Origin: an uncultured Magnetospirillum sp.
GTDB taxonomy: Bacteria > Pseudomonadota > Alphaproteobacteria > Rhodospirillales > Magnetospirillaceae
Reading direction: 5' to 3'
DNA length: 33,488 nucleotides
NCBI RefSeq assembly: GCF_903853455.1
Contig: NZ_CAINTR010000030.1
Coordinates: 1 to 33,488, forward strand
A program made the position numbers and the translations under genes. Under the pieces are notes generated by a model. It was not told the origin of the DNA, ran no database searches, and saw nothing but the letters and a program-made list of their open reading frames with translations. Positions 6,487 through 30,920 of this stretch are shown here, piece by piece; position 1 is the stretch's first letter, and each line of letters begins with the position of its first letter.

Positions 6487-6585
6487 AGATACCGTCGCTG
6501 AAAGTGGGAGGGGCCACCAACGAAGTAACCTAAGGATATAGAAGAGATCGGACCAACATGCCAGGGATACTGGATGTTCGATGTA

Positions 6586-9500: not shown

Positions 9501-9696
9501 GCTGGGTCACCGACGACGCCATGGTCTGAGGATCGGCGCCGGGCAGGGAGGTGGTGACGATGATGGTGGGGAAGTCCACCTGCGGCAGCGGGGCTACCGG
9601 CAATTGGGGAAACGCCACCAGCCCCGCCAGCAGCACCGCCACCATCAACAAGGTGGTGGCGACGGGGCGGCGGATAAAGGGTGCGGAAACGCTCAT
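6586..9696 (-). CDS. RND efflux pump inner-membrane transporter (HAE1, MdtB/MdtC-like)
   Basis: This encodes 1036 aa, a normal length for an RND multidrug pump. The N-terminus (SAPFIRRPVATTLLM, then QLPVAPLPQVDFPTI) is the classic HAE1 start and is closest to MdtB/MdtC. The proton-relay Asp pair is present in helix 4 (VGFVVDDAIVMLENI), and the relay Lys is in helix 10 (GIVKKNGIMIVDFAI). Twelve helices and two large periplasmic loops are consistent with a proton-driven tripartite exporter. The ATG has AGGG upstream. The membrane fusion protein gene lies upstream on the same strand, 214 bases away. Only one pump gene is present, unlike the mdtBC pair of enterobacteria, and no TolC-type outer-membrane gene is in the window. 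Substrates cannot be told from sequence. Confidence 0.93.
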   Translation of the reverse strand: MSVSAPFIRRPVATTLLMVAVLLAGLVAFPQLPVAPLPQVDFPTIIVTTSLPGADPQTMASSVTQPLERQFSQIPGVTQMTSSSVLGSSSITLQFDLERNIDAAAQDVQAAINAASGQLPKILPGPPTYRKVNPADTPILIIAVSSDTLPLTTVDDYADTVLAQQISRITGVGQVSIGGEQKPSVRVQVDPAKIASLGIGLEELRGVIANVTADSPKGSLDGDRRNLTIYANDQLTTAAPWADVIVAYKNGAPVRISDIGRAVDGPENTRLAAWENGRSAIYLVVYKLPGANVIETVDRVKATLPQLQASIPPAVKVKVVIDRTTTIRASVDDVEFTLTLTIGLVVMVIFLFLRNLWATIIPGITVPLALAGTAGLMYLAHYSLDNLSLMALTIAVGFVVDDAIVMLENIYRHLEEGMPPMEAAFAGASEIGFTIISISVSLIAVFIPLLLMSGVVGRLLREFAVTVSMAIVASIVVSLTLTPMMCARVLKDEHTTSHGRIYWAFERGFEALIGAYARGLDWVLRHQRLTMASFVATVILTGVLFSAIPKGFFPQQDTGVLFGISDAAQDISFAEMSRRQQALGAVLSADPDVANWTASIGAASGQTLNNGRFFMALKPRDQRTSSAQQVIDRLRRQTAGIPGVVLYLQAPQDLNVGGRLARTQYQYTLQDADLDELNHWAPAMLAKMKALAELQDVASDQQTDGATLNLVIDRDQASRFGIQPQTIDDTLYDAFGQRQVAQYFTQLSSYHVVMEVLPEMQGRTDTLDKIYLRSSTTGGQVPLSAIAHMDAAPVALLAVNHQGQFPSVTLSFNLRPGVALGQAVEAIKQAETELNKPISLVATFQGTAQVFQQSLASQPYLILAALVSVYIILGILYESFVHPLTILSTLPSAGAGALLFLMAFGHDMSLIALIGILLLIGIVKKNGIMIVDFAIAAQRERGMAPLDAIREASLKRFRPIMMTTFAAMLGGLPLMLGTGTGSELRQPLGVAMVGGLIVSQMLTLFTTPVIYLAFERLRHFGSGRPARQDDVKVAAE

Positions 9697-9760
9697 GGTT
9701 TGTCCCTCAGGCCGGAGCCGCCTTCGCTAGACAGAAATATTGAGTTTCCATTCCTTCTGC

Positions 9761-9860
9761 CGTCATCACCGGGCTTGTCCCGGTGATCCACGCCTGTCCG
9801 CACCTCTACCGGTCGTGCTGCGGCACCGCGTGGATGCCCGGAACAAGTCCGGGCATGACG
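9761..9860. repeat. intergenic double-hairpin palindromic repeat
   Basis: Two 33-base arms, 9761-9793 and 9828-9860, are inverted copies with 27 of 33 matches. Each arm is also a hairpin by itself: ATCACCGGG/CCCGGTGAT with a CTTGT loop in the first, and ATGCCCGGA/TCCGGGCAT with an ACAAG loop in the second. All six differences between arms are paired within the hairpins. GC-rich palindromes of this kind are common intergenic repeats in alphaproteobacteria. It sits between the membrane fusion protein gene and the RND pump gene and could affect mRNA stability or the ratio of the two products. Confidence 0.8.
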
Positions 9861-9910
9861 AGAAATAGGGGGGAAATCTAAGGCGGGGAGGGCAAGAGCA
9901 GGTGGCCCGC

Positions 9911-11035
9911 TCATGGCGTCCTGACCTCGACCTTGGCGCCGTTCTGCAGCCGCATCTGGCCGGTGGTGACCACGTTCTCGCCCTCGGTCAGGCCGGATTC
10001 GATCACGGCGCGGGTTTCGTCCGATTGGCCCACGCTTACCGGCCGGGCCTCGGCGGTGGAATCGGCGCGGGCGACATAGACATAGGCGCCCTGCTGGCCG
10101 CGCAGGATGGCGGAGGCCGGTACCGTCACCGCCTGACGGCGGGTTCCCAGCACCAGATGGGCGTTGACGAACTGACCCGGCCACAGCAGGCCGGTCTCGT
10201 TGGGCATGGAGGCCTTGAGGCGGACGGTGCCGGTGGTCTGGTCGATTTGGTTGTCCACCAGTTCCAGGTGTCCCCGGTCGAGAACCTGCTTGCCGTCGCG
10301 CGAGAACGCCGTCACGTCCAGCGAGCCGGTCGCCATGGCCCGGATCACGTCCGGCAGGGCGTCCTGGGGCAGGGTGAACACCACCATGATCGGCCGCATC
10401 TGGGAGATCACCACCATCGGGACGGCGTCGTTGACGTGGACGATGTTGCCCTGGTCGATTTGGCGGAATCCGGTGCGGCCGTCGATGGGCGAGCGGATGG
10501 TGGTGTAGCCGAGCAGGACACGGACACTCTCGATCGCCGCCTGGTCGGCCTGCACCGCGGCGCTCAACTGGGCTACCAGGGCCTGGGTGGTGTCCACCTG
10601 CTGGCGGGTGGCGTATTCGTTCTTAACCAGTTCGGTATAGCGGGCGAGGTCGCGGCGGGCGTTGGCCAACTGCGCCTCGTCCTGGGCCTTCTTGGCGATG
10701 GCTTGATCAAGCTGGGCCTGATAGGCGCGCGGGTCGATCTGGACCAGAACGTCGCCGGTTTTGACCTCCTGGCCCTCGCGGAACAGCACTTGATGCAGTT
10801 GACCATCCACCTGGGTTCGGATGGTGACGGTGTTGGTGGCGGCGACGGTGCCCAGACCGTCCAGGGTGACCGGTACATCCAACTTGGCGGCGGCGGTGGC
10901 GGTGATCGGGATCACCGGAGCCGCCTTGGCCGGACCGGCGACGTTGGCGCCGGGTCCGTATTGGCGGAAGGCCCACAGGCCGAGACCGGCCGCGATAATC
11001 AACAGCGCAAGTCGGCTCAGGTTCTTCAGGGACAT
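9911..11035 (-). CDS. RND efflux membrane fusion protein (MdtA/AcrA-like)
   Basis: This encodes 374 aa from the ATG at 11035; the frame could extend to 11143, but the extra residues look unlike a signal sequence, while MSLKNLSRLALLIIAAGLGLW is an N-terminal membrane anchor. The protein has a biotinyl-lipoyl half motif (TVTIRTQVDGQL...FREGQEVKTGD), a long coiled-coil hairpin (~105-170), the second lipoyl half (YTTIRSPIDGRTGFRQIDQGN) and a C-terminal beta-barrel ending in GQMRLQNGAKVEV. This is the periplasmic adaptor linking the RND pump to an outer-membrane channel. It is the promoter-proximal gene of the pair. The ribosome binding site before 11035 is weak, so the start is less certain than the family. 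Confidence 0.9.
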   Translation of the reverse strand: MSLKNLSRLALLIIAAGLGLWAFRQYGPGANVAGPAKAAPVIPITATAAAKLDVPVTLDGLGTVAATNTVTIRTQVDGQLHQVLFREGQEVKTGDVLVQIDPRAYQAQLDQAIAKKAQDEAQLANARRDLARYTELVKNEYATRQQVDTTQALVAQLSAAVQADQAAIESVRVLLGYTTIRSPIDGRTGFRQIDQGNIVHVNDAVPMVVISQMRPIMVVFTLPQDALPDVIRAMATGSLDVTAFSRDGKQVLDRGHLELVDNQIDQTTGTVRLKASMPNETGLLWPGQFVNAHLVLGTRRQAVTVPASAILRGQQGAYVYVARADSTAEARPVSVGQSDETRAVIESGLTEGENVVTTGQMRLQNGAKVEVRTP

Positions 11036-11233
11036 GGGGCGGGCGCTCTGTCTGGATGAAGCACGATCGATTGTTCGGCGGGGCATTCTCGGCTGAAAGG
11101 CTCGGCGGGTCAAATCCAATGGCATGCCAACGTGAACTTCCACAGTGGAGAGTGGTCATCACCTGGAAGGCTGGCGGAGTGCCGGAAAGTGGTTGAGCGC
11201 AAACATGAAATAATTATTTTCCTGCCTGTCAAA

Positions 11234-11251
11234 ATGTCGCGAATGCGACAT
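11234..11251. promoter_or_regulatory. palindrome ATGTCGC-GAAT-GCGACAT, candidate operator
   Basis: This is a perfect 7-4-7 inverted repeat in the AT-rich divergent region. It also fits the TGT-N10-ACA pattern of NifA-type enhancer sites, but no matching sigma-54 promoter with sensible spacing was found. It lies ~199 bases upstream of the efflux adaptor ATG and ~196 bases upstream of the 94-aa gene. A repressor or activator site is likely; the regulator is unknown. Confidence 0.4.
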
Positions 11252-11293
11252 AAACATAAGCGGAAAATATATTGTTATCTTTCAGACAAACAT

Positions 11294-11309
11294 TGAAGGA
11301 AATCCTTCA
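11294..11309. promoter_or_regulatory. palindrome TGAAGG-AAAT-CCTTCA, candidate operator
   Basis: This is a perfect 6-4-6 inverted repeat 42 bases to the right of the first palindrome, with the same arm and spacer geometry but a different sequence. It could be a second regulator site or a short transcribed hairpin. Confidence 0.3.
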
Positions 11310-11446
11310 TATCGTCTAGGCGTTTAATATTGTGTAGTGTTGTCTATATTTGATGGTGTACTTTGTCATCAGCGGTATCACGATGATGTTGTGCCGTAAG
11401 AGGGTGTCGTCCGGCTTGGTCGGCATGACGCTCTGTGGAGAATGAC

Positions 11447-11731
11447 ATGAGCAAAGCTGAAACCCTTCTCAAGCGTCTCCTCGTGGCCGGCAAAGGCGTG
11501 AGTACCTCCGAACGCCAGGCTGAGGCGAGGGTCAAGACCAACGACTACTTCAATCTCAACAAGGCGGAGATGAAGACCGACGGATTGTTGGCCACCATCA
11601 AGGAGGTGGAGGTCGAAATCCAGGGCCTGTCCGCCGCCGCCAGCGAAGCCGGCAACACCAATCTGGCCGAAGCGTATGATGCTTCGCTCACGGTCTTCGC
11701 CAAATGGAGCACGACCCAGGCCGCCGCCTGA
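11447..11731 (+). CDS. 94-aa helical protein of unknown function
   Basis: This is a 94-aa protein from the ATG at 11447, with GGAG six bases upstream; a GTG at 11435 is an alternative but lacks a site. I do not recognise the family. It is Ala, Glu, Lys and Leu rich, has no signal peptide or membrane helix, and is likely all alpha-helical. The segments KTDGLLATIKEVEVEIQGL and NTNLAEAYDASLTVFAKW read as amphipathic helices. The gene is monocistronic: it has an AT-rich regulatory region with palindromes upstream and a strong terminator 13 bases after its stop. Codon usage matches its neighbours. The gene is very likely real because of its start signal and terminator. Confidence 0.7.
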   Translation: MSKAETLLKRLLVAGKGVSTSERQAEARVKTNDYFNLNKAEMKTDGLLATIKEVEVEIQGLSAAASEAGNTNLAEAYDASLTVFAKWSTTQAAA

Positions 11732-11743
11732 GCGTTGTCAGCC

Positions 11744-11771
11744 AAAAGAGCCGGCGGTCGCCGGCTCTTTT
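11744..11771. terminator. bidirectional Rho-independent terminator
   Basis: The 12-bp arms AAAAGAGCCGGC (11744-11755) and GCCGGCTCTTTT (11760-11771) form a perfect stem with a 4-base loop. An A run on one side and a T run on the other let it act in both directions. It serves the 94-aa gene from the left and the response regulator gene, whose stop is at 11797, from the right. Confidence 0.88.
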
Positions 11772-11796
11772 CCTCCTGCCCGGTCACGGTTTCGCG

Positions 11797-12249
11797 TCAG
11801 TTGTTCCGTGTCGGCGGCAGACGGACCAGGGTGAACCAATATTCCTCCAGGACCTTGATCGTATTGACGAACTGATTGATGTCGATCGGCTTGACGATGT
11901 AGCCGGCCGCTCCCAACCGGTAGGAGGAGAGCGTGTCGCGCTCGACGTCGGAGGTCGTCAGAATCACCACCGGAGTGGCCGAAATCTCGGGATTGTTCTT
12001 CATCTCGCCGAGGAAGCGTCGCCCATCCATGCGTGGCATGTTGAGGTCCAGCAGGATGAGGTCCGGGCGCGGCGCATCAGCGTATTGCCCCTGGCGAGTG
12101 AGGAATTCCATTGCCTCCTGTCCATCGGAAACGTGATGCAGATCGACCAGGATGTGGTTCTCCTTGAACGCCTGACGCACCAGATACGCATCGGCCGGTT
12201 CGTCCTCGACCAGGAGAATGGTGAATGTCTGAGTTGTCGTCTGCCTCAT
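11797..12249 (-). CDS. single-domain response regulator (Rcp1/CheY-like)
   Basis: This encodes 150 aa consisting only of a receiver domain. The acidic pocket is LLVEDEPADA, the phosphoacceptor Asp is in LILLDLNMPRMDG, the conserved Thr is in VVILTTSD, and the Lys is in YIVKPIDINQF. The extended loop around RQGQYADAPRPDLILLD is typical of Rcp1-type regulators that work with PAS or phytochrome kinases. There is no output domain, so it acts by protein contact or as a phosphotransfer step. Its ATG overlaps the TGA of the upstream histidine kinase (ATGA), so the two are translationally coupled and it is the likely partner of the two kinases in this operon. Confidence 0.93.
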   Translation of the reverse strand: MRQTTTQTFTILLVEDEPADAYLVRQAFKENHILVDLHHVSDGQEAMEFLTRQGQYADAPRPDLILLDLNMPRMDGRRFLGEMKNNPEISATPVVILTTSDVERDTLSSYRLGAAGYIVKPIDINQFVNTIKVLEEYWFTLVRLPPTRNN

Positions 12250-14285
12250 TGATCGGTTCCTATCGGGAATTCCAGCACGATGGTCGCGCCGCCGCCTGGC
12301 GTCTCTTCGATCCAGACTTTTCCGTTTTCGTGTTCGACGATGCGGCGGATCACTGACAGGCCGACGCCGGTGTTGTCCTCTCCCGCCAACGGGTGCAGGC
12401 GCTCGAAGACCTGGAATACCAGGTTCCGGTATTCGGGCGCGATTCCCGGACCGTTGTCGGCGAAGCGCAGTCGCACCTTCGCCCCGGTCGCTGCGGCCGA
12501 GACATGGATGCGAAGCGGCCGGTCGGGATTGCGATAGCGGACGGAGTTGTCCAGAAGGATTTCCATCATGTTGGAAACACGCCGCCGATCCAGGTGGAGG
12601 TCTGGCATGTGAGGAGAGACCGTCACCTCGGCGCCTATGGCGGATAAGGTCGCGGCCCTGTTCGCCACCAGCGCCTCGACCACCTCGGCCGGTTGTACCC
12701 GGCCGACCTTGCCCATGGGCTGGTCGGCCGCAAGATAAAGCTGGATGTCGCGGATCAGGGCGCGGAGCCTGTTCGCCTGCTGTTCAATGAAGGTGAGCGA
12801 TAGGGATGCGTCCTCGGTGAGCATTGCTCCGCTCAGCGCGGTCTTGAGGCGCTGAGCGAAAGTGACCAGACGGCGAGCCGGCTCCTGGAGATGATGGGCC
12901 ATCACCTCGGTCAGGCGAACCAGTTCGGCATTCGTGAACTGGAGCCGCTGCTGTATCGCCTTCTGGTCCGAGATGTCGGTATAGACGCCGATATAGCGCA
13001 GCGCCTGATTGGGAGTGTCGGCGATCATGCTGACCGACAGCCATCCGGGAAAGGTGCCGCCGGATTTACGCCGGTTCCAGATCTCGCCTTGCCAGCGGCC
13101 ATCCGATTGGAGCGTGGCCCAGAAATTCCGGAAGAAATCGTCATCATGCATGTCCGACTTGAACAAGGCCGGGGTCTTGCCGAGCAGCTCGTCCAGGTCA
13201 TAGCCGGTGATGTCGCACATGGCACGGTTGGCACTGATGATCCGGCTGTCCTGATCGGTGACGATGATGCCTTCCAGGGCATTGGCGAAGACCTCGGACG
13301 TCAGGCGCCGTTGCTCCTCCGCTTGGCGGACCGTGGCGCTGTAACGCACGGAAATCTTGGCGGCCAGCAGGATGGAGCCGATGAGAAACACCAGGGAAAT
13401 GCCGCCGTAGACATAGGCTGTCCGGCGCCATTCCACGAGAATCCGGTCGTAGGAAATGCCGACAAGGACAAAGAACGGGTAAGGGCCGATGCGCCGGAGG
13501 GTATAAAGACGCTCCTGACCGTCGAGGGCGCTTCGCCCGGAATAAGTTTCTTCCTGGACGCGCGCCTTGATGAAACCGAGAAGCTTGTCCGAAATGGTCG
13601 ACTTGCCGATCTGGTCCGGCGCGTTGGGCAGGCGCGCCACCAGCGCCCCGTTGCCGTTGAGCAAGGTGATGTTGTCGCTGGTCCCCAGCGATACGGTGTT
13701 GAAGGCACCGACCAGGGCGTCGGTCTGAATGGAGCTTTGGACAATGCCGAGAAAGGTCTTGTCCCGAGCCTCGACCCGACGGCTGAAGGTCAGGGTCCAC
13801 AGGCTCACCACGCGGGAAAACAGCGGCCCTTCGGGAAAAAGGCCGGTGTCGGAATTTTCCTTCTGCACCGTGAAATAGCGGCGGTCCGAAATGTTGGCGG
13901 GCGACACGCCGCCGCTGGCGTCAAACACGTACTCGCCGTTTTCGTTGATCAGCCGAAGGCTTAAAATTCCCGGAGCCCGCGCCAGGTGGCGGGCCAGCAT
14001 GGGGTTCATTTCCGATGTCGGCAGGCCGGTGCCGGTTCGATAGGCCGAGTACTGGAAAGCCGCTTCCTGGACGATGAGGTCGATCCGATCCATGGACGCC
14101 AGGAGGTGCTGTTCCAGGATACGGGCGATGGATTGGGTGACTGCGGTGGCGTAATCGATTTCTCGACGGTAGCTCCGGTGGAGTTCGATGGACAACAGGC
14201 CAGTGAGCACAAGCACGACACCCATTGCCGCCGCGATCAGGGCGAGAGGTCTGGACTCGATTCGTGCGCGCATGTCTTTAAACAT
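12246..14285 (-). CDS. sensor histidine kinase (dCache-PAS-HisKA-HATPase)
   Basis: This encodes 679 aa from the ATG at 14285; a second Met is four codons in. Helix 1 is at ~14-33, a dCache-like periplasmic sensor at ~40-280, helix 2 at ~287-308, and one PAS at ~325-445 (ALEGIIVTDQDSRIISANRAM). The phosphoacceptor region reads EVMAHHLQEPARRL, differing from the usual SHDLREPLR of this class by a second His in place of Asp. The ATPase domain has an N box (LLDNSVRYRNPDR), DNGPGIAP and NTGVGLSV. Its start overlaps the 3' end of the upstream 1246-aa kinase by 8 bases, and its stop overlaps the start of the receiver gene. The ligand is unknown. Confidence 0.9.
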   Translation of the reverse strand: MFKDMRARIESRPLALIAAAMGVVLVLTGLLSIELHRSYRREIDYATAVTQSIARILEQHLLASMDRIDLIVQEAAFQYSAYRTGTGLPTSEMNPMLARHLARAPGILSLRLINENGEYVFDASGGVSPANISDRRYFTVQKENSDTGLFPEGPLFSRVVSLWTLTFSRRVEARDKTFLGIVQSSIQTDALVGAFNTVSLGTSDNITLLNGNGALVARLPNAPDQIGKSTISDKLLGFIKARVQEETYSGRSALDGQERLYTLRRIGPYPFFVLVGISYDRILVEWRRTAYVYGGISLVFLIGSILLAAKISVRYSATVRQAEEQRRLTSEVFANALEGIIVTDQDSRIISANRAMCDITGYDLDELLGKTPALFKSDMHDDDFFRNFWATLQSDGRWQGEIWNRRKSGGTFPGWLSVSMIADTPNQALRYIGVYTDISDQKAIQQRLQFTNAELVRLTEVMAHHLQEPARRLVTFAQRLKTALSGAMLTEDASLSLTFIEQQANRLRALIRDIQLYLAADQPMGKVGRVQPAEVVEALVANRAATLSAIGAEVTVSPHMPDLHLDRRRVSNMMEILLDNSVRYRNPDRPLRIHVSAAATGAKVRLRFADNGPGIAPEYRNLVFQVFERLHPLAGEDNTGVGLSVIRRIVEHENGKVWIEETPGGGATIVLEFPIGTDQ

Positions 14286-17200
14286 CGATGCTCTCTAGCG
14301 AGGAGGCATCCGACGATTCCTGGACGGGTTGTCCGGTCATGGGCAATGTGAAGCGGAAGCAGGTTCCTTCCGTCTGCCCATCCTCGATCCAGATTCGCCC
14401 GCCGTGGTTTTCGACAATCTTTTTGCACACGGCCAAGCCGATGCCGGTCCCCTCATAGGCTCCGTTCGCCACCAGCCGCTGAAAGATCTTGAAGGCGCGG
14501 TCACGGTCCGCGGGAGCGATGCCGATGCCGTTGTCGCACACCGTGACGATCCACTCGCCGTCCTCGACGCAGCACGTCACTCCGACGCGGGGGGCGCGCT
14601 CGGGGGCGCGGTATTTGATGGCGTTGCCGATCAGGTTCTGGAACAGCCGGGTCAGGTCCAGCCGCTCGCCCAGCACGGTGGGTAGATCCTCGGCGATGGT
14701 GACCACGGCCCCCGCCTCGGCCACCGCCACCTCGAGATTGGCGAGAGAGTCGGCGAGGGTGTCGGCGAGGCGGACTGGCGCGAACGGGATGTTGCAGCGG
14801 CCAGTGCGGGAATATTCGAGCAGGTCGAGGATCAATCGGTCCATGCGTCTGGCGCCGTTGATGGCGAAGTCGAAGAAGGTTCGCAGATCCTCGTTCAACT
14901 CGCCTCCCAGCCGCCGCTCGATCAGGGCGAGGTAGCTGGTGACCATGCGGAGCGGTTGGCGCAGGTCGTGCGAGGCCACATAGGCGAACTGTTCCAATTC
15001 GGCGTTGACCGTTTGCAACTGCTGCGCCTGCAATTCCAGGGCCTGGTTGGCTTCGGAGATCCTGGTTTCGGCCTCCTTGCGAAAGGTGATGTCTTCCTTG
15101 ACGGAAACGTAATGCACGATCTGCTGGGCGTCGTTGATGACGGGGGAGATGGCCACCACCTCCCAATGAAACACGCCGTTCTTTTTCCTGTTCTTGAACT
15201 CGCCGCGCCATTGCCGGCCGTCGGTGATGGTCGCCCACAGTTCCGCGTAGGTGGAATACGGCGTCTCGCCGGAACTGATGAGGCTGGCCCGCTGGCCGAT
15301 CGCCTCGTGGGCGGTGTAGCCGGTGATCGTGGTGAAGTGGGCGTTGACGTATTCGATCACGCCGTCGGGGTTGGTGATCACCACCGACACCGGCGACTGT
15401 TCGACGACGGTGGACAGCATTTTCAGACGGAGCGCGCTGGCCGCCTCGAAGGTGATGTCGGTGCCGATGCCGCGATAGCCCAGGAAGTTCCCGCTATCGT
15501 CGAAGCGGGGGGAACCGCTGATGCTGATCCATTTGGCATTGCCATCGGCAAGCCGCAGCCAATAGCGGAAGTCGCGGAAGCTGCGACGGGCGGACAGGTC
15601 CTCCATATGGGCCTGCCAGATCTCGACGTCGATCTCGTGCCGTTCCGATGCCACGTCCCAACGCCGCTTGCCCAACTGCACTGTCGCGGGCTGGCCCAGA
15701 ATGATGTCGAACGAGGGGGAGAACCAGGAAAAGCGATGCTGGTCATCAGTCTCCCACACCCAGTCGGTGGTTCCCTCCACCAAGGTGCGGAAGCGTTGCT
15801 CGCTCTCGGTCAGCCGGTGTTCGACATTCCGGCGTTCGGTGATGTCGATGGCTACTCCCAGATAACCGGTGATCTCGTCCGGGGAGGAGTAGACCGGCGT
15901 GACCACCAGGGACACCGTGATGTGGCCGCCATCCTTGCGGCGGTAGGTCCATTCGCGCTTTTCGCTGCCCTCGAGCTCGGCCTTACGGATGAAGGTGGCG
16001 AATCCCCGCACCGGAATTGTCAGTTCGGCGTCAAGTTCGGTCGCCCGCGCGTCGATTTCCTCGGCGATGTGGAACAAGGCCGGAGTCTCCGTGCCGACCA
16101 CCTCCCAGGCGGAATAACCCAGCATCTTCTCGGCGCCCCGGTTGAAGACGGTGATGATCCCATCCGGGGCGGTGGCGATGATGGCGACCTCGGACGCCGC
16201 CGAAAGCACGTCCTGGTAGCTGCGGTTGAGGGTCTGGATGACCTCCTCGGCGTGCTTGCGCTCGGTGATGTCTTCCTTGATGCCGACATAGTGGGAGAGT
16301 GTGCCGGTCTCATCCATGATCGGGAAGATGCGGGCCTGCTCCCAATACGCCGAGCCGTCCTTGCGGAGGTTGCGGAAGGTGCCGCTCCACGGCTGGCCGC
16401 CGGCGAGTTGGGCCCAGATGGCCTGGTACTCCTCCTCGGTGGTCTCCCCCGACTTGAGAAGGCGGGGATTCTGTCCGATGGCTTCGTCGCGGGAATAGCC
16501 GGTGACGCGGCTGAAGGCGGCGTTGACGTAGTCGATGGTGCCGTCCGGCGAGGTCACGACGACGGAGACGGGACTTTGCTCGATGGCGGTGGCCAGCCTT
16601 TGCCGCTCGCGTTCCAGTCGGATTCTGTCCGTCACGTCGTGGATCAGCGATAGCAGCAGCGTCTTGCTGTCCGAGGCGACCGGACCGGAATGGACTTCGA
16701 CGTCACGGATCTCGCCGCTGGCCAACCGGTGGCGGAAGAAAAGATAGTCGCGCCCTTCCTGGGTGGCTCGGGCCATTTCCACCGCCACGTCGTCGGGCGA
16801 GGCGGTGTTGATCCGGGACATGGACATGGTCTTCAGCGTATCCACGTCCCAGCCGTAATAGGCGGCCGCCATCCGGTTGGCATCGACGATAGAATCGTCG
16901 TCGGGGTCGATCAGCAGCATGGCCACTTTCGAGCCGCTGAACAGCGACCGGTAACGCTCCTCGCTGCGCTGGACGTCGGCCAGGGCCTCGTTGAGGGCGC
17001 GGGTGCGGTCGGCGACCTGGACTTCCAGATGGCCGCGCGAGCGCTGCAACGTCGCCAGCATGGTGTTGAAGGCGACGGCCAGCATGGCGATCTCGTCGCG
17101 CCCCTCCACCGGCGCCATCCGCGAGGTGGCCCCTTCCTCGGCGATGCGTCTGGCGGTGTTGCTCAGTTCCACCAGCGGCATGGTCAGCCGCTGACCCATG

Positions 17201-18018
17201 CGCCGCGCCAGGATCCACGACAGCAGCACCGCCGCGACGACGGCGAGGAGATAGGCGGTCACCACAAGTCCGAACCCTTCCGGCATGGTCCGCCGCTCGG
17301 TCAGGCTCAGGCGGAAGCGGCCCGCCACGTCACCCAGGGCGACGGCGCGTTCGGCCGAGGTGAGGTCGCCGCCGGCGGACGGGGCGGCGACACCATCGGG
17401 ATCCGCCATCAGCCGCAGGCTACCCGCGCTTTCGCCGGCGAGATTGGCAAGCACGCTGGAAACATCCAGCGAGGCGGCGACATAGCCCTCGGCATGGCCG
17501 GTGCCGGGGTATTGGACAGGCTGTAGCGTCAGCAGCCGCGGCGCGCCGTCCTCCCTCCACAAGATGACGGTCTGGGCCGCCTCGGTGGCGAACAGGGCCG
17601 CCATCTGCGGCAGGTCGGCATAGCATTCGGGGGTCCTTCCGTTGCGGCCGACCAGCGGCCGGCCGTGGACGTCGCACAAGGCGATGGCGTGCGGCTCGGT
17701 CACCGGCAGCCGGTAGCTGCCGAGGAAGGGTTTGAGGTAGGTGTCGCGCTCATGCGAGTCGAGCAGTGACGTGGTCATCACCGGATTGGTCGCCAGATCG
17801 GCGCTGTTGCGTACGAAGACCTCGATGCGGGCGGCCAGTCGCTCGGCCATATGATCCAGCCGGTGCTTCAGGTCCCGGTCTTGTTGCTGGCGCAGCAGCC
17901 ACAGGCTGCCGGCGAAGGCGATGACGCAGAGCAGCAGGCTGGCGAACAGAAGGCTGAGTACCGCCTGGGCGGCGACCCGGCGGCTGAAGCTCTCCTCGAT
18001 CCAGCCCCGCCAGCCCAT
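14278..18018 (-). CDS. multi-PAS membrane sensor histidine kinase
   Basis: This encodes 1246 aa from the ATG at 18018; the frame opens at 18084, but the residues before MGWRGWIEESF look non-native. Helix 1 is near 20-42, followed by a periplasmic sensor to ~235, helix 2 (TAYLLAVVAAVLLSWILARR) and a HAMP linker. Then come five PAS domains in tandem, a coiled coil, HisKA with the His in YVASHDLRQPLR, and an ATPase domain (QNLIGNAIKYRAPER, DNGIGIAP, GTGIGLAV). PAS 2 and PAS 5 share the EQSPVSVV-x-PDG-x-I-x-YVNA signature and look like an internal duplication. It is the first gene of the kinase-kinase-receiver operon. The kinase core is paralogous to that of the 998-aa kinase. Soluble PAS ligands or cofactors cannot be told from sequence. 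Confidence 0.92.
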   Translation of the reverse strand: MGWRGWIEESFSRRVAAQAVLSLLFASLLLCVIAFAGSLWLLRQQQDRDLKHRLDHMAERLAARIEVFVRNSADLATNPVMTTSLLDSHERDTYLKPFLGSYRLPVTEPHAIALCDVHGRPLVGRNGRTPECYADLPQMAALFATEAAQTVILWREDGAPRLLTLQPVQYPGTGHAEGYVAASLDVSSVLANLAGESAGSLRLMADPDGVAAPSAGGDLTSAERAVALGDVAGRFRLSLTERRTMPEGFGLVVTAYLLAVVAAVLLSWILARRMGQRLTMPLVELSNTARRIAEEGATSRMAPVEGRDEIAMLAVAFNTMLATLQRSRGHLEVQVADRTRALNEALADVQRSEERYRSLFSGSKVAMLLIDPDDDSIVDANRMAAAYYGWDVDTLKTMSMSRINTASPDDVAVEMARATQEGRDYLFFRHRLASGEIRDVEVHSGPVASDSKTLLLSLIHDVTDRIRLERERQRLATAIEQSPVSVVVTSPDGTIDYVNAAFSRVTGYSRDEAIGQNPRLLKSGETTEEEYQAIWAQLAGGQPWSGTFRNLRKDGSAYWEQARIFPIMDETGTLSHYVGIKEDITERKHAEEVIQTLNRSYQDVLSAASEVAIIATAPDGIITVFNRGAEKMLGYSAWEVVGTETPALFHIAEEIDARATELDAELTIPVRGFATFIRKAELEGSEKREWTYRRKDGGHITVSLVVTPVYSSPDEITGYLGVAIDITERRNVEHRLTESEQRFRTLVEGTTDWVWETDDQHRFSWFSPSFDIILGQPATVQLGKRRWDVASERHEIDVEIWQAHMEDLSARRSFRDFRYWLRLADGNAKWISISGSPRFDDSGNFLGYRGIGTDITFEAASALRLKMLSTVVEQSPVSVVITNPDGVIEYVNAHFTTITGYTAHEAIGQRASLISSGETPYSTYAELWATITDGRQWRGEFKNRKKNGVFHWEVVAISPVINDAQQIVHYVSVKEDITFRKEAETRISEANQALELQAQQLQTVNAELEQFAYVASHDLRQPLRMVTSYLALIERRLGGELNEDLRTFFDFAINGARRMDRLILDLLEYSRTGRCNIPFAPVRLADTLADSLANLEVAVAEAGAVVTIAEDLPTVLGERLDLTRLFQNLIGNAIKYRAPERAPRVGVTCCVEDGEWIVTVCDNGIGIAPADRDRAFKIFQRLVANGAYEGTGIGLAVCKKIVENHGGRIWIEDGQTEGTCFRFTLPMTGQPVQESSDASSLESIDV

Positions 18019-18205
18019 GGCCCTACATCCGTACCAGGGGTGTGGCGCCGATGGCGGAATCAGTCCGGACTGTGGTGCCCTCACCCGGGCTCTGGACTTT
18101 CATTGCGCTTCGCATGCCCCCCTCGTCAGCTTGGCCGATGCGGCCTTGCTCCCCCATCGATTGAAGATCGTCACAGTGCGCGAGTCTCATCTTTAGTATA
18201 CAGAC

Positions 18206-18448: not shown

Positions 18449-18746
18449 TACGGCAATAGGATGCGAAGCAGGGGGAGTGTCGCCAAGGAAAGAGGTGGTT
18501 CGGTTCATTAGGAAATGTCTCTTCAGACTCGGCCGAGTATTCCGTCTGACCCGTTGGTTCATGTTTCCGGATGCAAGAGACTCATTCCGTATTCTCGGAG
18601 GTGTTTGTTTGAGTTACCATGGCGTCGGATTAGGCCTGCTGGACGCCAATCTGGGAAATGTGGATTTTTGTAGATTGTAATCACTACAAGATCAGTTGAT
18701 TGCGGCTGTTTGTTGCGTCACCAGTTTTCTCGATTGGAGTTCGGGT

Positions 18747-20978
18747 ATGCCGAGCAATTCCACGGACCATGGCGATCCGCTGATCGCGATTGAAGCCGAC
18801 GAGGCTCCGGATGCCTTGGCGAAAGCCCATGTGTTGGCGCCATGGCGACTTTTAGTGATCGACGACGACGACGAGGTTCACCGGGTCACGCGCTTCGCCC
18901 TCCGAGGTGTCGAGATCGAAGGGAGGGCGCTGGAACTCCTGCATGCTCATTCCGCCCGCGAGGGAGAGGATATTCTCCGGCGCGAGCGGGACATCGCCTG
19001 CATCCTGCTTGACGTGGTCATGGAGCCGCCCGATGCCGGGCTGTCCCTGGTGCAGGTGATTCGCGAGGTCATCGGCAACACGATGGTGCGGATCATCCTT
19101 CGTACCGGCCAGCCGGGGCAGGCTCCCGAACTCGATGTGGTCCAGCGCTACGACATCAACGACTACAAGCAGAAGTCGGAACTCAGCAACACTAGGCTGC
19201 TCACCACCCTGATCGCCGCCTGCCGGTCCTATCAACAACTCTATTCCATCGAGGCGAACCGGCGCGGCCTGCGCATGATCATCGACGCGACCCGCAACCT
19301 GATGGAGGAGACCAACCTCAAGCGGTTGAGCGCCGGGGTCCTGACCCAGGCGTGTTCGATCCTCGATATTCCGACCGAGGGCGCGGTCTGCCTGAGAAAG
19401 GGAGCCGACGACGACCTGCGGGTGCTGGCGGCGGCCGGCAAGTACCATGACCTTTCCGGCCTGAAGGTCGCCGACATTTCCGACCAAGCCATCCGCGATT
19501 TTCTGGTGAGCATGTTCGCCGCGCGGAAAACCACGGCCTGCGAGGACGGCAAGTCGAGCCTGTACACCGCCTTGCCGTCAGGCGACGAGGTGGTGGTCCA
19601 TGTGGATCACCCCCATCCGCTTCCCGAGATCGAGCAGAGCCTGCTGGAGGTCTTCGCCTCCAACGTCTCGGTGGGGATGCGGAACGCGGAACTGTTCGAG
19701 CAGGTTGAGAAGCTGGCCTATCGCGACCGCCTGACCAACCTGCCGAACCGGACCAGCTTCGGTAACGAGATCCGACGGATGATCGTGGCGGGAGCCGGAT
19801 TCGCCGTCGCCGTCGCCGACCTCAATCGCTTCAACACCGTCAACAGCGGGCTGGGCCACTCGTTCGGCGACCGGATGATGACCGAAGTAAGCCGGTTGCT
19901 GTCGAGCGTGAGCGAGGCCAACGGCATCTATGTGGCGCGGCTGCATTCGGATGTGTTCGGCCTGGTCATTCCCGCCGCTTCGGTGACGGAGGCCAAGGCC
20001 AGCCTGAGCCGTGTTCATGCCGTCTTGAGCGGGCTGCTGGACCTGGACGAACATGCCGTCTGCCTGTCGGTGTCCATCGGGGCCGCCATGTATCCGGCTG
20101 ATGGCGATCTCGCCCAGGATCTGTACCGGTGCGCCGACATGGCGCTACGCCAGGCGAAGGCTCTCGGGCTTGGCCAGACCTCGTTCTATGCCCGTGGCAT
20201 GGGGGAAATACTGCGCGGCCGCCTGGAGATGATCTCCCAATTGAGGAAGGCCTTCGTCGCCCGGGATCTGCGCGTCTTTTTCCAGCCGCAAATCCAGTTG
20301 ACGAGCGGGACATGCGTCGGGGGCGAGGCGCTGTTGCGCTGGCCGTTGCCCGGCGGCGGTTTCATCTCTCCCCTGGAATTCGTGACCGCGGCCGAGGATT
20401 CCGGGCTGATCCACGATGTCGGATTCTGGGTCCTGGAGGAAACCTGCAAATGGTTGAATCGCTGGTCGGCCAGCCATAGGCGCGACCTGCGGCTCGCCCT
20501 CAACATCTCGGCCATTCAATTCCGCCAGCCCGGCTATTCCGAGCGCTTGATCGACGCGGTCGCCGCCGCCGGGGTCGATCCCAAGGGGCTGGAACTGGAA
20601 ATCACCGAATCGTGCCTGCTGGACGATGCGGAGTCCATCATTTCCCAGCTTCACGACTTCCGGGGCAAGGGCATGCGCACCGCTCTCGACGACTTCGGCA
20701 CCGGCTATTCCTCGCTGGGTCGGCTCCGCCATCTGCCGATCGACACGCTGAAGATCGACCGTACCTTCGTCTCCGACATCTGCAACTCCACCGAAAGCCA
20801 CAATATCGCCGAAACCATCGTGCGCATGGGGCACCTGATGAGCAAGGAGGTCGTGGCGGAAGGGGTGGAGACCGCCGAGCAGGCTGCCAGCCTGCGGGCT
20901 ATCGGTTGCGAGTTCGGCCAGGGCTATCTGTTCTCGCCGGCCGTGCCGCCGGAGGAGTTTAGCCGCTTCTTGACCTGA
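18747..20978 (+). CDS. REC-DUF3369-degenerate GGDEF-EAL protein, probable c-di-GMP phosphodiesterase
   Basis: This encodes 743 aa from the ATG at 18747, with GGAG 7 bases upstream. A receiver domain at ~33-150 has the acidic pocket IDDDDE, phosphoacceptor D89, T120 and K141. A DUF3369-type domain follows at ~165-325. The GGDEF domain (~325-480) has HSDVF at 400-404 in place of the GGDEF active-site loop, so it should not make c-di-GMP. The EAL domain (~490-740) keeps E527 in EALLRW, the LNIS Asn, E621 in EITES, DDFGTG at 648-653, K669, E705 and Q725, so it should hydrolyse c-di-GMP. Output is probably controlled by receiver phosphorylation. It starts a three-gene operon; the next gene is a histidine kinase 36 bases downstream. 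Confidence 0.93.
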   Translation: MPSNSTDHGDPLIAIEADEAPDALAKAHVLAPWRLLVIDDDDEVHRVTRFALRGVEIEGRALELLHAHSAREGEDILRRERDIACILLDVVMEPPDAGLSLVQVIREVIGNTMVRIILRTGQPGQAPELDVVQRYDINDYKQKSELSNTRLLTTLIAACRSYQQLYSIEANRRGLRMIIDATRNLMEETNLKRLSAGVLTQACSILDIPTEGAVCLRKGADDDLRVLAAAGKYHDLSGLKVADISDQAIRDFLVSMFAARKTTACEDGKSSLYTALPSGDEVVVHVDHPHPLPEIEQSLLEVFASNVSVGMRNAELFEQVEKLAYRDRLTNLPNRTSFGNEIRRMIVAGAGFAVAVADLNRFNTVNSGLGHSFGDRMMTEVSRLLSSVSEANGIYVARLHSDVFGLVIPAASVTEAKASLSRVHAVLSGLLDLDEHAVCLSVSIGAAMYPADGDLAQDLYRCADMALRQAKALGLGQTSFYARGMGEILRGRLEMISQLRKAFVARDLRVFFQPQIQLTSGTCVGGEALLRWPLPGGGFISPLEFVTAAEDSGLIHDVGFWVLEETCKWLNRWSASHRRDLRLALNISAIQFRQPGYSERLIDAVAAAGVDPKGLELEITESCLLDDAESIISQLHDFRGKGMRTALDDFGTGYSSLGRLRHLPIDTLKIDRTFVSDICNSTESHNIAETIVRMGHLMSKEVVAEGVETAEQAASLRAIGCEFGQGYLFSPAVPPEEFSRFLT

Positions 20979-21014: not shown

Positions 21015-22296
21015 ATGCCATTCCAACTCTTCGGCCTCGAAGGCCTGGCTCCCCACGGCACCTGCTTGCTGTGGATCAGCGAGCTGTTTTGGACCCATGC
21101 CGCCTCGGATGCCCTCATCTCGGCCGCTTATGCGTCCATCAGCATTTCGATGATCCTGGTCATACGAAAGCGCGAGGACGCACTGCTGCGCCGGGTGGGG
21201 GCCTTCTTCGCCGCGTTCATCCTGGTCTGCGGCAGCAGCCATGCCATGGATATCTGGACGCTGTGGTTTCCCGATTACGGCGCCCAGGCCCTGGTCAAGG
21301 TCGCCACCGCGACGGTTTCGGTTATGACGGCGATCCTGCTGTGGCCGTTGATGCCGCGTATCCTGGCGCTTCCCAGCATCGCCCAGCTCGAGGCCGCCAA
21401 CACGGCGCTGAATGTGGAGATCGCCGAGCGCCGGCAGGCCGAGGTGAGGTTGGCCGCCTATGCGGACGAGTTGAAGCGCAGCAACCGTAACCTGGAACAG
21501 ACCCTGAGCCGGCTGGACCAGACCCGGACCCAGCTTCTGCACTCGGAAAAGATGGCGTCCCTGGGTGGGCTGGTGGCCGGGATCGCCCACGAGATCAACA
21601 CGCCGGTCGGCAATGGCATCACCGTCGCCAGCAGCCTGACGGAACTGGTCAAGCGCTTCCGCCTCCGCATCGAGGGCGAGGCGATCAAACGGTCGCATCT
21701 GGAGACTTTCGCCGCCGACGTGGAGGAGGCGGCGGGGTTGCTGTCGACCAATCTCGAGACCGCCGCCGGGCTGGTTCAAAGCTTCAAGCAAGTCGCCGCC
21801 GACCAGACCTCGTCGCAGCGGCGCCGGTTCGACCTTGGCGAGACCATGGACGAGATCGTCGCCACCCTTCGCCCCCGTTTCAAACGCACCTCATTTGCCA
21901 TCGAGATCGGCATTCCTCCGGGTATCGTCATGGAGAGCTATCCCGGCCCTCTGGGCCAGGTCGTCACCAATCTGGTGACCAACTCCCTGCTCCACGCCTT
22001 CGAAGGGCGGGAGCGAGGCACGATGACCTTGACGGCCGCCATGGTGGGGGGGGAGCGGGTGACGATCTGCTACGGCGACGATGGTGTCGGCATCCCGCGC
22101 GAGCTGCGGGAGCGGGTCTTCGAACCGTTCTTCACCACCCGCCAGGGGAGTGGTGGTACCGGCCTTGGTCTCCATGTCGTCTACAACATCATCACCAATG
22201 TGCTGGGTGGTTCCATCACGCTGCAATCGGCCGTTGGAGAAGGCGTGAAATTCATCATCGACGTGCCCCTGACCGCTCCAACCCTGGTGCAGAGCA

Positions 22297-22304
<8 letters not shown>
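21015..22304 (+). CDS. histidine kinase with ETR1-like (ethylene receptor) membrane sensor domain
   Basis: This encodes 429 aa from the ATG at 21015, preceded by GGGGGA. The first ~120 residues form three membrane helices. They align without gaps to the plant ETR1 ethylene-binding domain at a constant +7 offset: D32, Y39, I42, I69, C72 and H76 match ETR1 D25, Y32, I35, I62, C65 and H69; C65 and H69 hold the Cu(I) cofactor. ETR1 P36 is Ser43 here. A coiled coil (~120-175) leads to a HisKA domain with H192 in GIAHEINTPVGN, and an ATPase domain ends in GTGLGLHVVYN. There is no PAS, GAF or receiver, so it must phosphorylate another protein; both neighbours carry receivers. The family similarity is from memory of ETR1 and cyanobacterial homologues. 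Ethylene as ligand is inference; copper or another small molecule is possible. Confidence 0.88.
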
Positions 22305-25896
<3,592 letters not shown>

Positions 25897-28041: not shown

Positions 28042-28587
28042 TTACAGGTCGAAGAACACCGTCTCGGTCTCGCCCTGCATGATGACATTCCAGATCAGCA
28101 GAGCGGGTTCGGATGGCGAGGCTCGGGCGATCAAGGTTCTCCGCCGGGCCGGCTCGACCCGCGCCAGGATCGGATCCTCGGCGTTGGCGGGCTCGTCGGG
28201 GAAATACATCCGGGTCGTCACCCGTTTCAGCAGGCCGCGCATGCCGATGGACAGCAGCAGATGCGGCGCTTGCAGCGTACCGCCGGGACCGGCGACCCGT
28301 CCTGGTTTGATGGTGGAAAAGCGAAACCCGCCGTCATCGCCCGAGGGAATGCGGCCGAAGCCGCGAAAGCCGTCACCGGCTTCGGGATAGTGGCCTTGCG
28401 AATCGGCCTGCCAGACCTCGATCAGGGCGTCGTTGATGGGCTGGCCGTCGCCGTCGAGGATCCGGCCGGCGATGGTGACCCGCTGGCCGGCAACCTCCGG
28501 CCCGGCGATGGCGGCATTGTCGGCCCAGGACAGTCCGATATGGAAATAGGGGCCGACGGTCTGCGAGGCGGTGGCGACGAGGCTCAT
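28042..28587 (-). CDS. pcaG: protocatechuate 3,4-dioxygenase alpha subunit
   Basis: This encodes 181 aa and starts within the pcaH stop codon (ATGA overlap), so synthesis of the two subunits is coupled. The start (ATASQTVGPYFHIGLSW) is the classic PcaG N-terminus, and DALIEVWQADSQGHYP matches the intradiol dioxygenase fold. As expected for the alpha subunit, the iron-binding Tyr and His set is not complete; it helps shape the active site held by PcaH. The holoenzyme cleaves protocatechuate to 3-carboxy-cis,cis-muconate. Confidence 0.96.
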   Translation of the reverse strand: MSLVATASQTVGPYFHIGLSWADNAAIAGPEVAGQRVTIAGRILDGDGQPINDALIEVWQADSQGHYPEAGDGFRGFGRIPSGDDGGFRFSTIKPGRVAGPGGTLQAPHLLLSIGMRGLLKRVTTRMYFPDEPANAEDPILARVEPARRRTLIARASPSEPALLIWNVIMQGETETVFFDL

Positions 28588-29294
28588 GGCCGGTCCTCCA
28601 TGGGAGTGGCCTCGCGGCCACGCAGCACGATGTCGAAGCGGAATCCCAGCGCATGGTCCGGCTGGGTCAGGCCGATGTCGAAGACGGAGATCAGCCGGTC
28701 GCGCGCCGCCGGATCGGCGGTGCAGTTGAAGATGGGGTCCAGCGGCAGCAGCGGATCGCCGGGGAAGTACATCTGGGTCACCAGCCGGGTCAGGAAGGAC
28801 GGTCCGAACAGCGAGAAATGGATATGGGCCGGCCGCCAGGCATTGGGGTGGTTGCGCCAGGGATAGGCGCCGGGCCGGATGGTCTGGAAGCGGTAGCCGC
28901 CCTCGTCGTCGGTCAGCATGCGGCCGCAGCCGGTGAAGTTGGGATCGAGCGGGGCGTCGTGGCCATCGTTCTTGTGGCGATAGCGGCCGGCGGCGTTGGC
29001 CTGCCAGACCTCGATCAGGGTATTGCGCACCGGGCGCCCGGTCTCGTCCACCACCCGGCCGGCGATGATCAGGCGCTCGCCCAGCGGCGCACCGGCATGG
29101 CCGGCGGTCAGGTCGGATTCGCCGCTTCCGACCTCGTCGGGACCGAAGACCGGCCCGCTCAGCTCGGACAGGGTGTGGGGCGCCAGCACCAGCGCCCGCG
29201 ACGGCGCCCGCTTGACGGTGGAGGCATAGGGACGATGGAGATAGTCCGGCTGGGTTCCCGGCACCAGCCGCCGATAGGGCGTGGGGTCCGTCAT
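28584..29294 (-). CDS. pcaH: protocatechuate 3,4-dioxygenase beta subunit (internal start within a ligase fusion frame)
   Basis: This encodes 236 aa if started at the ATG at 29294, which has a strong GGGAGGA site 6 bases upstream. The Fe(III) ligands are Y105, Y144, H157 and H159, with spacings of 39, 13 and 2 residues, identical to those between Y408, Y447, H460 and H462 of Pseudomonas putida PcaH. YASTVKRAPSR and HTLSELSGPVFG are typical of the family. The same frame is open upstream through a CoA ligase with no stop between, so it can be made alone or as the C-terminal part of a 778-aa fusion. The strong site argues for free PcaH as the main product. Its stop overlaps the pcaG start. Confidence 0.93.
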   Translation of the reverse strand: MTDPTPYRRLVPGTQPDYLHRPYASTVKRAPSRALVLAPHTLSELSGPVFGPDEVGSGESDLTAGHAGAPLGERLIIAGRVVDETGRPVRNTLIEVWQANAAGRYRHKNDGHDAPLDPNFTGCGRMLTDDEGGYRFQTIRPGAYPWRNHPNAWRPAHIHFSLFGPSFLTRLVTQMYFPGDPLLPLDPIFNCTADPAARDRLISVFDIGLTQPDHALGFRFDIVLRGREATPMEDRP

Positions 29295-30920
29295 CGATCT
29301 TCCTCCCAGAAGTCCCGGGGCAGGTTTATCCTCCGCCGGTAAAGTGTCGAGGTCAATCGCCTCGCCCAGGAGGCCCGGCTCCTGCTTGAGGCGGAACTTG
29401 GCCACCCGATGGGTGGGGGTGTGGGGCAACTCCGCGACCAAGACCAGGAAGCGCGGCCGCTTCGGCGGTGACAGATGGGCGGCGCACCAGTCCCGGATAT
29501 CCCGGGGGTGGAGGGGGACGCCGGGTCGGGCGACCACCGCGACCAGGATCTCGTCCTCGCCCAGGTCCGACGGCACCGCGATGGCGGCGGCCTCGGCCAC
29601 ACCCGGATGGCTTCCGATCACCCGGTCGAGTTCGGCCCCGGAGATGTTCTCGCCCCGCCGGCGGATGATGTCTTTCTTGCGGGCGACGAAAAAATAAAAG
29701 CCGTCGCCGTCGCGCCGGACCAGATCGCCGGTGGCGAACCAGCCGTCGCGAAATGCCGCCGCCGTCTGCTCGGGGTCGCGGTAATAGCCCTGCATCACGA
29801 TGGGGGTGCGAGCCAGCAATTCGCCGGTGGCGCCGTCGGGGAGGTCGCGGCCGTCTTCGTCCACCACCCGCAGTTCGGCGAAACGCCGCGACGGGTCGGG
29901 ATGGCGGGCGGCGCGGCCCATGCTGCCGGGCTGGTGGGGACCGTCGAACGGCTGGTTGCAGACGCCGGGGATCTCGGTCATGCCATAGCCTTCGATGATA
30001 TGGGGGATGGCGAAATCCGTCGTGAAGATCGCGGCGATCTCCGGGGTGACGGGGGCGCCGTAGACCTTGACCAGCCCATGGCCGGGGACGAATTCGCGCC
30101 GCGGCCGCCGGGCCAGGATGGTGCCGATGGCGGCGATGATGTTGACCTGGGTGGCTCGCCACCGTGCCGCCAAGGGCCAGAAGCCCGAGGCGCTGAAGCG
30201 GGCCGCCAGCACCAGCGAGGCGCCGGCGGCTACGGCTCCACCCAACGAATAGAACAGAGCGTTGATATGGAACAGCGGCAGCACGCAGAGCAGCCGGTCG
30301 TCCGCCTGTAACCGCATGCGCTCGACGAAGCCTTCGCCGGCCATGACGAAGCTGGCTTGGCGGTGCATCACCCCCTTGGGGAAGCCGGTGGTGCCCGAGG
30401 TGTACATGATCAGGCAGGTGTCGTCGGGCTGGCCGATGGCGGCGGGCGAGGGGAAGGAGGACGGTTCGCTCAGTTCCTCCAGGCGAGCGATCCAGGGATG
30501 CTCGCCGGCGGCGAGACGGGCGACGGCTTCGGTCTCCAGGGTGCACAGCACCGCCGCCACCTCGGCATGGTCCAGAATGGCGCCGGCTTCGGCGGCGGAG
30601 AATTCGGGATTGACCGGCACCAGGATCGCTCCCAGCCGCCCCAGGGCGAAGAACACCGCCACGAACAGGTCGCTGTTGGCGGCCATCACCGCCACCCGGT
30701 CAGCGGGGCCGATGCCTCGCTCCGCCAGGATCGTCGCCATTCCCAGGGCCAGATCGCGGAACGCGCCCCAACTGCGGCAGGTTTCACCGAACATCAGGAA
30801 CGGCCGCTCCGGTCCAACCGCCGTCCGGCTATGGAGCAGACCCCACAGCGTCTCGCCATGGGGTGGGTACAGCGCCAGCGTCTGTTGGGGGGGTATTTGA
30901 GGAATGGTGATGTCAATCAT
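28584..30920 (-). CDS. AMP-forming acyl-CoA ligase, read in frame into PcaH
   Basis: This 778-aa frame has no stop between an acyl-CoA ligase (~1-542) and PcaH (543-778). The ligase has the AMP-binding P-loop YTSGTTGFPKGV, EGYGMTE, GWFATGDL, the hinge region RRRGENISG and the catalytic K508 in THRVAKFRL. It looks closest to CaiC-like (crotonobetaine/carnitine) ATP-dependent ligases, but its substrate is unknown; an aromatic or related acid is plausible from the operon. A 542-aa ligase is a complete length. In an alternative frame a TGA (29291-29293) overlaps the pcaH ATG as ATGA, which suggests the ligase once ended there and a small indel joined the frames, or that the assembly has an error. 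No ribosome binding site is visible at the 30920 ATG. Confidence 0.8.
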   Translation of the reverse strand: MIDITIPQIPPQQTLALYPPHGETLWGLLHSRTAVGPERPFLMFGETCRSWGAFRDLALGMATILAERGIGPADRVAVMAANSDLFVAVFFALGRLGAILVPVNPEFSAAEAGAILDHAEVAAVLCTLETEAVARLAAGEHPWIARLEELSEPSSFPSPAAIGQPDDTCLIMYTSGTTGFPKGVMHRQASFVMAGEGFVERMRLQADDRLLCVLPLFHINALFYSLGGAVAAGASLVLAARFSASGFWPLAARWRATQVNIIAAIGTILARRPRREFVPGHGLVKVYGAPVTPEIAAIFTTDFAIPHIIEGYGMTEIPGVCNQPFDGPHQPGSMGRAARHPDPSRRFAELRVVDEDGRDLPDGATGELLARTPIVMQGYYRDPEQTAAAFRDGWFATGDLVRRDGDGFYFFVARKKDIIRRRGENISGAELDRVIGSHPGVAEAAAIAVPSDLGEDEILVAVVARPGVPLHPRDIRDWCAAHLSPPKRPRFLVLVAELPHTPTHRVAKFRLKQEPGLLGEAIDLDTLPAEDKPAPGLLGGRSMTDPTPYRRLVPGTQPDYLHRPYASTVKRAPSRALVLAPHTLSELSGPVFGPDEVGSGESDLTAGHAGAPLGERLIIAGRVVDETGRPVRNTLIEVWQANAAGRYRHKNDGHDAPLDPNFTGCGRMLTDDEGGYRFQTIRPGAYPWRNHPNAWRPAHIHFSLFGPSFLTRLVTQMYFPGDPLLPLDPIFNCTADPAARDRLISVFDIGLTQPDHALGFRFDIVLRGREATPMEDRP

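Follow-up and report, generated by a model that had tools for sequence, protein, structure and literature searches.

What would a bacterial histidine kinase sense, and what would it control, if it carries the ethylene-binding-type domain of the plant receptor ETR1 with one residue of the binding site exchanged? This question is raised by a sensor gene in the window, the whole 33,488-nucleotide stretch of DNA analysed here (uncultured Magnetospirillum sp., contig NZ_CAINTR010000030.1; Table 1). Natural proteins in which one ethylene-binding residue is exchanged and the remaining site is kept make the role of ETR1 P36 testable. In addition, the sensor gene and its upstream neighbour would connect c-di-GMP directly with a receptor of the ethylene type; for Azospirillum, a relation between the two is on record as a changed metabolite level with no known pathway (PMC11819568). 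With a probability of about 50%, the product is read here as a gas-sensor kinase that depends on Cu(I) and would adjust c-di-GMP, its ligand probably being ethylene, bound with altered affinity.

The present analysis establishes the identity of the domain, its residues, the gene order and the clade to which it belongs. Pfam assigns the N-terminal part of the product to ETR1_N (PF25487; curated cut-off, 27 bits) with 110.4 bits (E = 5.5e-32) over profile positions 2-97 of 97. The earlier note had taken this region for the ethylene-receptor-like part of a bacterial histidine kinase, and this reading holds: the curated profile and BLASTP against ETR1 agree, and the profile search, which could have placed the domain in another family, placed it in ETR1_N. 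The domain end that it had set at 21374 also fits the Pfam match. By sequence, the sensor kinase is genuinely related to the plant ethylene receptor. Its class was known before, since ethylene receptors have been described in bacteria (SynEtr1; AzoEtr1, PMC11819568).

The N-terminal start MPFQLFG is conserved in a homologue with 66% identity. String search located the kinase motifs HEINTP (from residue 192), NLVTNS (319), DDGVGI (355) and GTGLGL (381); HisKA gave no match (Pfam, E 0.001). Pfam found no PAS or GAF domain between the membrane part and the kinase core, and no sensor domain other than ETR1_N in the protein. An AlphaFold2 model of modest confidence (mean pLDDT 73.7, pTM 0.40; underlying alignment of only 2 sequences) places helices of the sensor domain at residues 12-52, 56-84 and 88-117, followed by a helix at 122-149.

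Table 1. Positions in the window of the sensor gene, its binding-site residues and its neighbours.
Feature	Position	Strand	Basis
ETR1_N sensor histidine kinase, 429 aa	21015..22304	+	ORF list (ATG start); Pfam ETR1_N aa 24-119, HATPase_c aa 312-420
ETR1_N (ethylene-binding-type) domain, three predicted transmembrane helices	21084..21371	+	PF25487, residues 24-119
D32, equivalent of ETR1 D25	21108..21110	+	alignment
S43, at the place of ETR1 P36 (clade: Ser 6/9, Gly 3/9)	21141..21143	+	alignment, tree
C72, equivalent of ETR1 C65, presumed Cu(I) ligand	21228..21230	+	alignment
H76, equivalent of ETR1 H69, presumed Cu(I) ligand	21240..21242	+	alignment
Presumed response regulator and c-di-GMP phosphodiesterase: receiver, DUF3369, degenerate GGDEF, EAL	18696..20978	+	Pfam, motifs
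Receiver-PAS-PAS-histidine kinase	22297..24321	+	PAS_7, PAS_9, HisKA, HATPase_c above cut-off

For the profile alignment, BLASTP and the tree, the Arabidopsis ETR1 reference sequence was entered by hand. In the profile alignment, ETR1 D25, Y32, I35, I62, C65, H69 and K91 correspond to D32, Y39, I42, I69, C72, H76 and K95 of the sensor kinase; the first six pairs are those that the earlier note had proposed, and the Cu(I) ligands C65 and H69 are thus kept, as it had stated. Both the profile alignment and BLASTP put S43 at the place of P36. Its further claim of a gapless alignment over about 120 residues at a constant offset of +7 stands through helix 2 and fails beyond. BLASTP against ETR1 (35/96 identical residues, 36%) opens seven gap positions. 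All of them fall about the loop that joins helices 2 and 3, between residues 83 and 95 of the sensor kinase, so the constant offset stops where helix 2 ends; helix 3 has an offset of +4, with ETR1 K91 and S98 opposite K95 and S102.

Six of the seven residues reported as required for ethylene binding in ETR1, among which we count Y32, are present in the sensor kinase, and P36 is replaced by Ser. In the published descriptions consulted, the number of such residues is given as seven, with D25 among them (PMC11819568), and I35, P36, I62, C65 and H69 are named as essential (PMC6586836); Cu(I) is placed close to C65 and H69, and each ETR1 monomer carries one copper (PMC6586836). Caution over P36 was well advised, since ETR1 binding is reported to need this residue (PMC6586836) and since Ser or Gly marks a whole clade, not one gene.

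Position 36 was followed through a survey of ETR1_N copies. The own genome (5.18 Mb, 223 contigs) has a single ETR1_N match, the sensor kinase. ETR1_N was found in none of 14 control genomes, the likeness being far beyond chance, and in 9/60 relatives, 17/55 genomes of the own family, 31/297 of the order, 28/385 of the class and 29/398 of the phylum (28 of them over the Pfam cut-off); these sets overlap and each counts the own genome. A contig search drawn by the kinase part yielded 80 loci, with an ETR1_N-like domain (E 1e-8) only in L005. The residue survey covers 91 copies: the window, L005 and 89 loci from the genome searches, including L169, which lies below the Pfam cut-off. Seven matches stayed outside it (five from the class search, two from the phylum search), and L093, below the cut-off, gave no alignment. 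Position 36 is Pro in 61/91 copies and another residue in 30/91. Among the 73 copies that keep D25, Y32, C65 and H69, it is Pro in 55, Ser in 10 and Gly in 8. All six plasmid-borne copies examined, out of 18 plasmid records and with AzoEtr1 included, have Pro. ETR1_N kinases lie on plasmid p2 of Novosphingobium sp. ES2-1 (L197) and on plasmid RHOApc of Rhodovastum atsumiense (L200); one of the two is on a conjugative-typed plasmid about 0.8 kb from cas9, and the other is about 0.9 kb from a transposase gene.

A tree was built from 85 rows (ETR1 and 84 of the 91 survey copies) and 104 columns, with the position-36 column omitted; L136, L139, L140, L141, L167, L168 and L169, being divergent or partial, were not included, and the program warned that columns were few and the bootstrap not settled. 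The window and eight other copies, all of the own family, form a clade (support 99/99) with Ser at position 36 in six members and Gly in three. Pairwise identity within this clade is 50-84%, and the equivalents of D25, Y32, I35, I62, C65, H69 and K91 are invariant in all nine members. As 36/104 columns are invariant in the clade, the chance that seven given columns are all invariant is about 4e-4, only a rough value because the rows are related and the same columns are conserved family-wide. Other places near the copper residues differ from the Pro-bearing copies: that of G66 is Ala in 7/9 members, versus Gly in 58/61 and Ala in 3/61, and that of T68 is Ser in 8/9 and Cys in 1/9, versus Thr in 55/61 and Ser in 6/61.

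A separate second clade of nine (support 96/90) also has no Pro at position 36, with Phe at the I62 place in 9/9; its rows are L088, L089, L090, L105, L108, L112, L113, L114 and L191. Two more Ser copies (L157, L161) and several divergent copies stand apart, and the ETR1 row, on a long and unsettled branch, adds little. Pro and non-Pro labels alternate on the tree with at least seven changes, three of which are forced by starred branches. These scattered groups suggest repeated replacement of Pro, frequently without change at the copper residues. The Ser/Gly variant may be new, although the receptor class is known: among the papers listed in the literature search, which covered titles and the starts of abstracts with subscription papers mostly missing, none names a Ser/Gly clade or a DUF3369 partner.

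The possible output is indicated by the neighbouring genes. The stop of the upstream gene and the start of the sensor gene are separated by 36 bases on the same strand; the TTG start of the former is a mechanical choice and uncertain. Its product matches DUF3369 (139 bits), GGDEF (96.4 bits) and EAL (222.2 bits) in Pfam. Its GGDEF signature reads LHSDVF in place of GG(D/E)EF, and the strings GGEALLRW, EITES, DDFGTGYSS, LKIDRTF and AEGVET, which we take to be the EAL catalytic motifs, are all present. This protein is probably a c-di-GMP phosphodiesterase. Response_reg gave no match in it (Pfam, E 0.001); its receiver is assigned from motifs and from homologues with sub-cut-off Response_reg hits. 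The downstream gene overlaps the end of the sensor gene by 8 bases, and Response_reg scores 25.8 bits on its product, below the 30.2 cut-off; the receivers of the two neighbours match each other with 222.8 bits. The gene group of the sensor kinase probably controls c-di-GMP, the attach-or-swim signal.

Three of the nine clade members (the window, G029 and G253) have a DUF3369-GGDEF-EAL gene directly upstream of the sensor gene and in the same orientation, and all three partners match EAL in Pfam. The kinases of G029 and G253 have Gly at position 36; between the window and G029, the kinases are 66% and the phosphodiesterases 61% identical. The stretches of G029 and G253 have no counterpart of the downstream PAS kinase gene behind the kinase and carry there a minus-strand ORF of 923 aa, which in G253 is overlapped by a plus-strand ORF of equal length. 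The other six members have different kinase cores and no DUF3369-GGDEF-EAL match in stretches of 6.9 to 13.5 kb. In G009, a GGDEF-EAL gene of another type follows the sensor gene at a distance of about 0.4 kb and in the same orientation, and one lies further off in the stretch of G283; any GGDEF-EAL gene nearby is thus seen in 5/9 members, a post hoc count over stretches of unequal length.

A general link of ETR1_N to c-di-GMP genes was rejected. Outside the own family, GGDEF or EAL genes occur in 7/40 ETR1_N stretches and 3/38 control stretches (Fisher p = 0.31), and one of the seven positives is a fusion within the receptor gene itself. The ETR1_N stretches were chosen mainly for long contigs among the order, class and phylum matches, and four of the 40 are shortened by contig ends. 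Controls came from the same contigs, 36 at 40 kb below the match and two at 40 kb above; G224 and G247 have no control stretch, controls L281 and L282 were left out, and HD-GYP proteins were outside the count. As there is no significant enrichment outside the own family, the DUF3369 pairing looks like a feature of the lineage, not of the domain. Two surveyed loci encode ETR1_N and GGDEF in one protein, L185 at 6043-6993 (+; Pfam, ETR1_N 79.4 bits and GGDEF 174.1 bits) and L239 at 4602-5897 (+; phmmer match, 47 bits), and their products could be ethylene-type diguanylate cyclases.

Several known systems resemble the sensor kinase. AzoEtr1 of Azospirillum brasilense is described as having, like the window, an N-terminal ETR1-type domain, a histidine kinase and an adjoining response-regulator gene (PMC11819568). 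Locus L199 is taken to be AzoEtr1 because it comes from A. brasilense Sp7, its ORF begins MFGGVEAF, as the primer of the paper encodes (PMC11819568), and it has 525 residues from that start. The two domains share 52/119 aligned residues. AzoEtr1 has P36 and a PAS domain, whereas in the window the residue is Ser and PAS was not found; also, the presumed partner of AzoEtr1 is a 135-aa receiver without a recognisable output domain, in contrast to the DUF3369-GGDEF-EAL neighbour here. According to the published work, AzoEtr1 binds ethylene, biofilm formation is reduced by ethylene or by AzoEtr1 loss, and c-di-GMP fell in the presence of ethylene, as seen by metabolomics; a decrease of kinase activity by ethylene is predicted by its authors (PMC11819568). 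SynEtr1 (slr1212) of Synechocystis likewise has an ETR1-type domain on a bacterial histidine kinase and additionally carries a light-sensing cyanobacteriochrome domain (PMC6682694; compared by description, not by sequence). Plant receptors are described as having a GAF domain and often a receiver, and as signalling mainly without the kinase. In an uncultured Aquabacterium, locus L003 encodes a kinase core similar to that of the sensor kinase (246.9 bits) next to a DUF3369-GGDEF-EAL gene of the same type. Its sensor is PAS and not ETR1_N, a difference that points to an exchange of sensors on a common kinase/phosphodiesterase module.

For copper, ligand, dimer, phosphotransfer and direction of effect, we infer the following course of action. 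The ETR1-type sensor kinase would sit in the inner membrane and depend on Cu(I), which C72 and H76 of two chains would hold close to D32. From the membrane, a small gas would reach the copper and bind there; ethylene is the likeliest, with an affinity changed by Ser in place of Pro at residue 43. Helix 3 (K95, S102) and the following coil would relay the change to the kinase core, and phosphate from H192 would pass to the receiver of the DUF3369-GGDEF-EAL neighbour, which would degrade c-di-GMP. The downstream PAS kinase, through its own receiver, is probably a second acceptor in the own genome. Kinase activity of known receptors presumably falls with ethylene, so that the gas would alter phosphodiesterase activity and hence attachment or motility. 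This reading is favoured by the ETR1_N score, the invariant site residues, the DUF3369 gene order and the A. brasilense data (PMC11819568); against it count the reported need for P36, the tomato Nr mutant, the Pro in plasmid copies, the pairing in only 3/9 clade members and the p value of 0.31.

The ligand is the weak point. In tomato, P36 of the Nr receptor presumably corresponds to ETR1 P36. The Nr ethylene-receptor mutant is reported to be changed at this residue (PMC9911886), and P36 is reported as essential in ETR1 (PMC6586836), so the sensor kinase may have another ligand, or none. The P51L change of tomato SlETR1 (insensitive) was dropped as evidence on P36, as nothing in the text consulted equates P51 with this position; the weight given to each reading stayed as it was. 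The clade could sense a ligand other than ethylene, such as another alkene or an alkyne, CO or Cu(I) itself, with the Cu site kept and positions 36, 66 and 68 remodelled. This is possible if doubtful: Ser or Gly at 36 (9/9), Ala for G66 (7/9) and Ser or Cys for T68 (9/9) agree with it, as does the separate clade of nine likewise without Pro and with Phe at the I62 place, but the nine members are related, so that these changes may be one old event, and a bent helix may still be possible with Ser or Gly. A subfamily in which Ser/Gly for Pro, Ala for Gly and Ser for Thr have remodelled the copper pocket, with another small ligand and, in some members, a direct c-di-GMP output through a dedicated DUF3369-EAL phosphodiesterase, appears rather unlikely.

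That the product is a canonical ethylene receptor, with Ser or Gly as a full substitute for Pro and affinity unchanged, can be put forward only tentatively; the presence of the other six binding residues and the alternation of Pro and non-Pro on the tree speak for it, whereas ETR1 reportedly needs P36 (PMC6586836). That the domain is now a mere membrane anchor and dimerisation element, with the true input elsewhere, is very improbable. One reportedly essential residue is indeed lost, and Pfam finds no PAS or GAF domain from the membrane to the kinase core; however, the seven named columns are invariant in nine copies that are 50-84% identical, and Pfam shows no alternative sensor domain in the protein.

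As a possible source of ethylene in the organism itself, a nitrogenase-like methylthio-alkane reductase was considered and dropped: the own genome has four nitrogenase-type Oxidored_nitro genes, all in one 8-kb stretch (L193-L196; C186:76529-84421), presumably the number expected of nifDKEN. Judged from these genes, the organism may fix nitrogen. Elsewhere in the window, positions 3490-18084 (-) encode an AcrB-type pump as well as three large histidine kinases with PAS domains. A single ORF at 28584-30920 (-) matches both an AMP-binding enzyme and an intradiol dioxygenase (Dioxygenase_C), and with a second Dioxygenase_C ORF, a CMD ORF and a FAD_binding_3 ORF nearby, this region resembles an aromatic-acid breakdown cluster.
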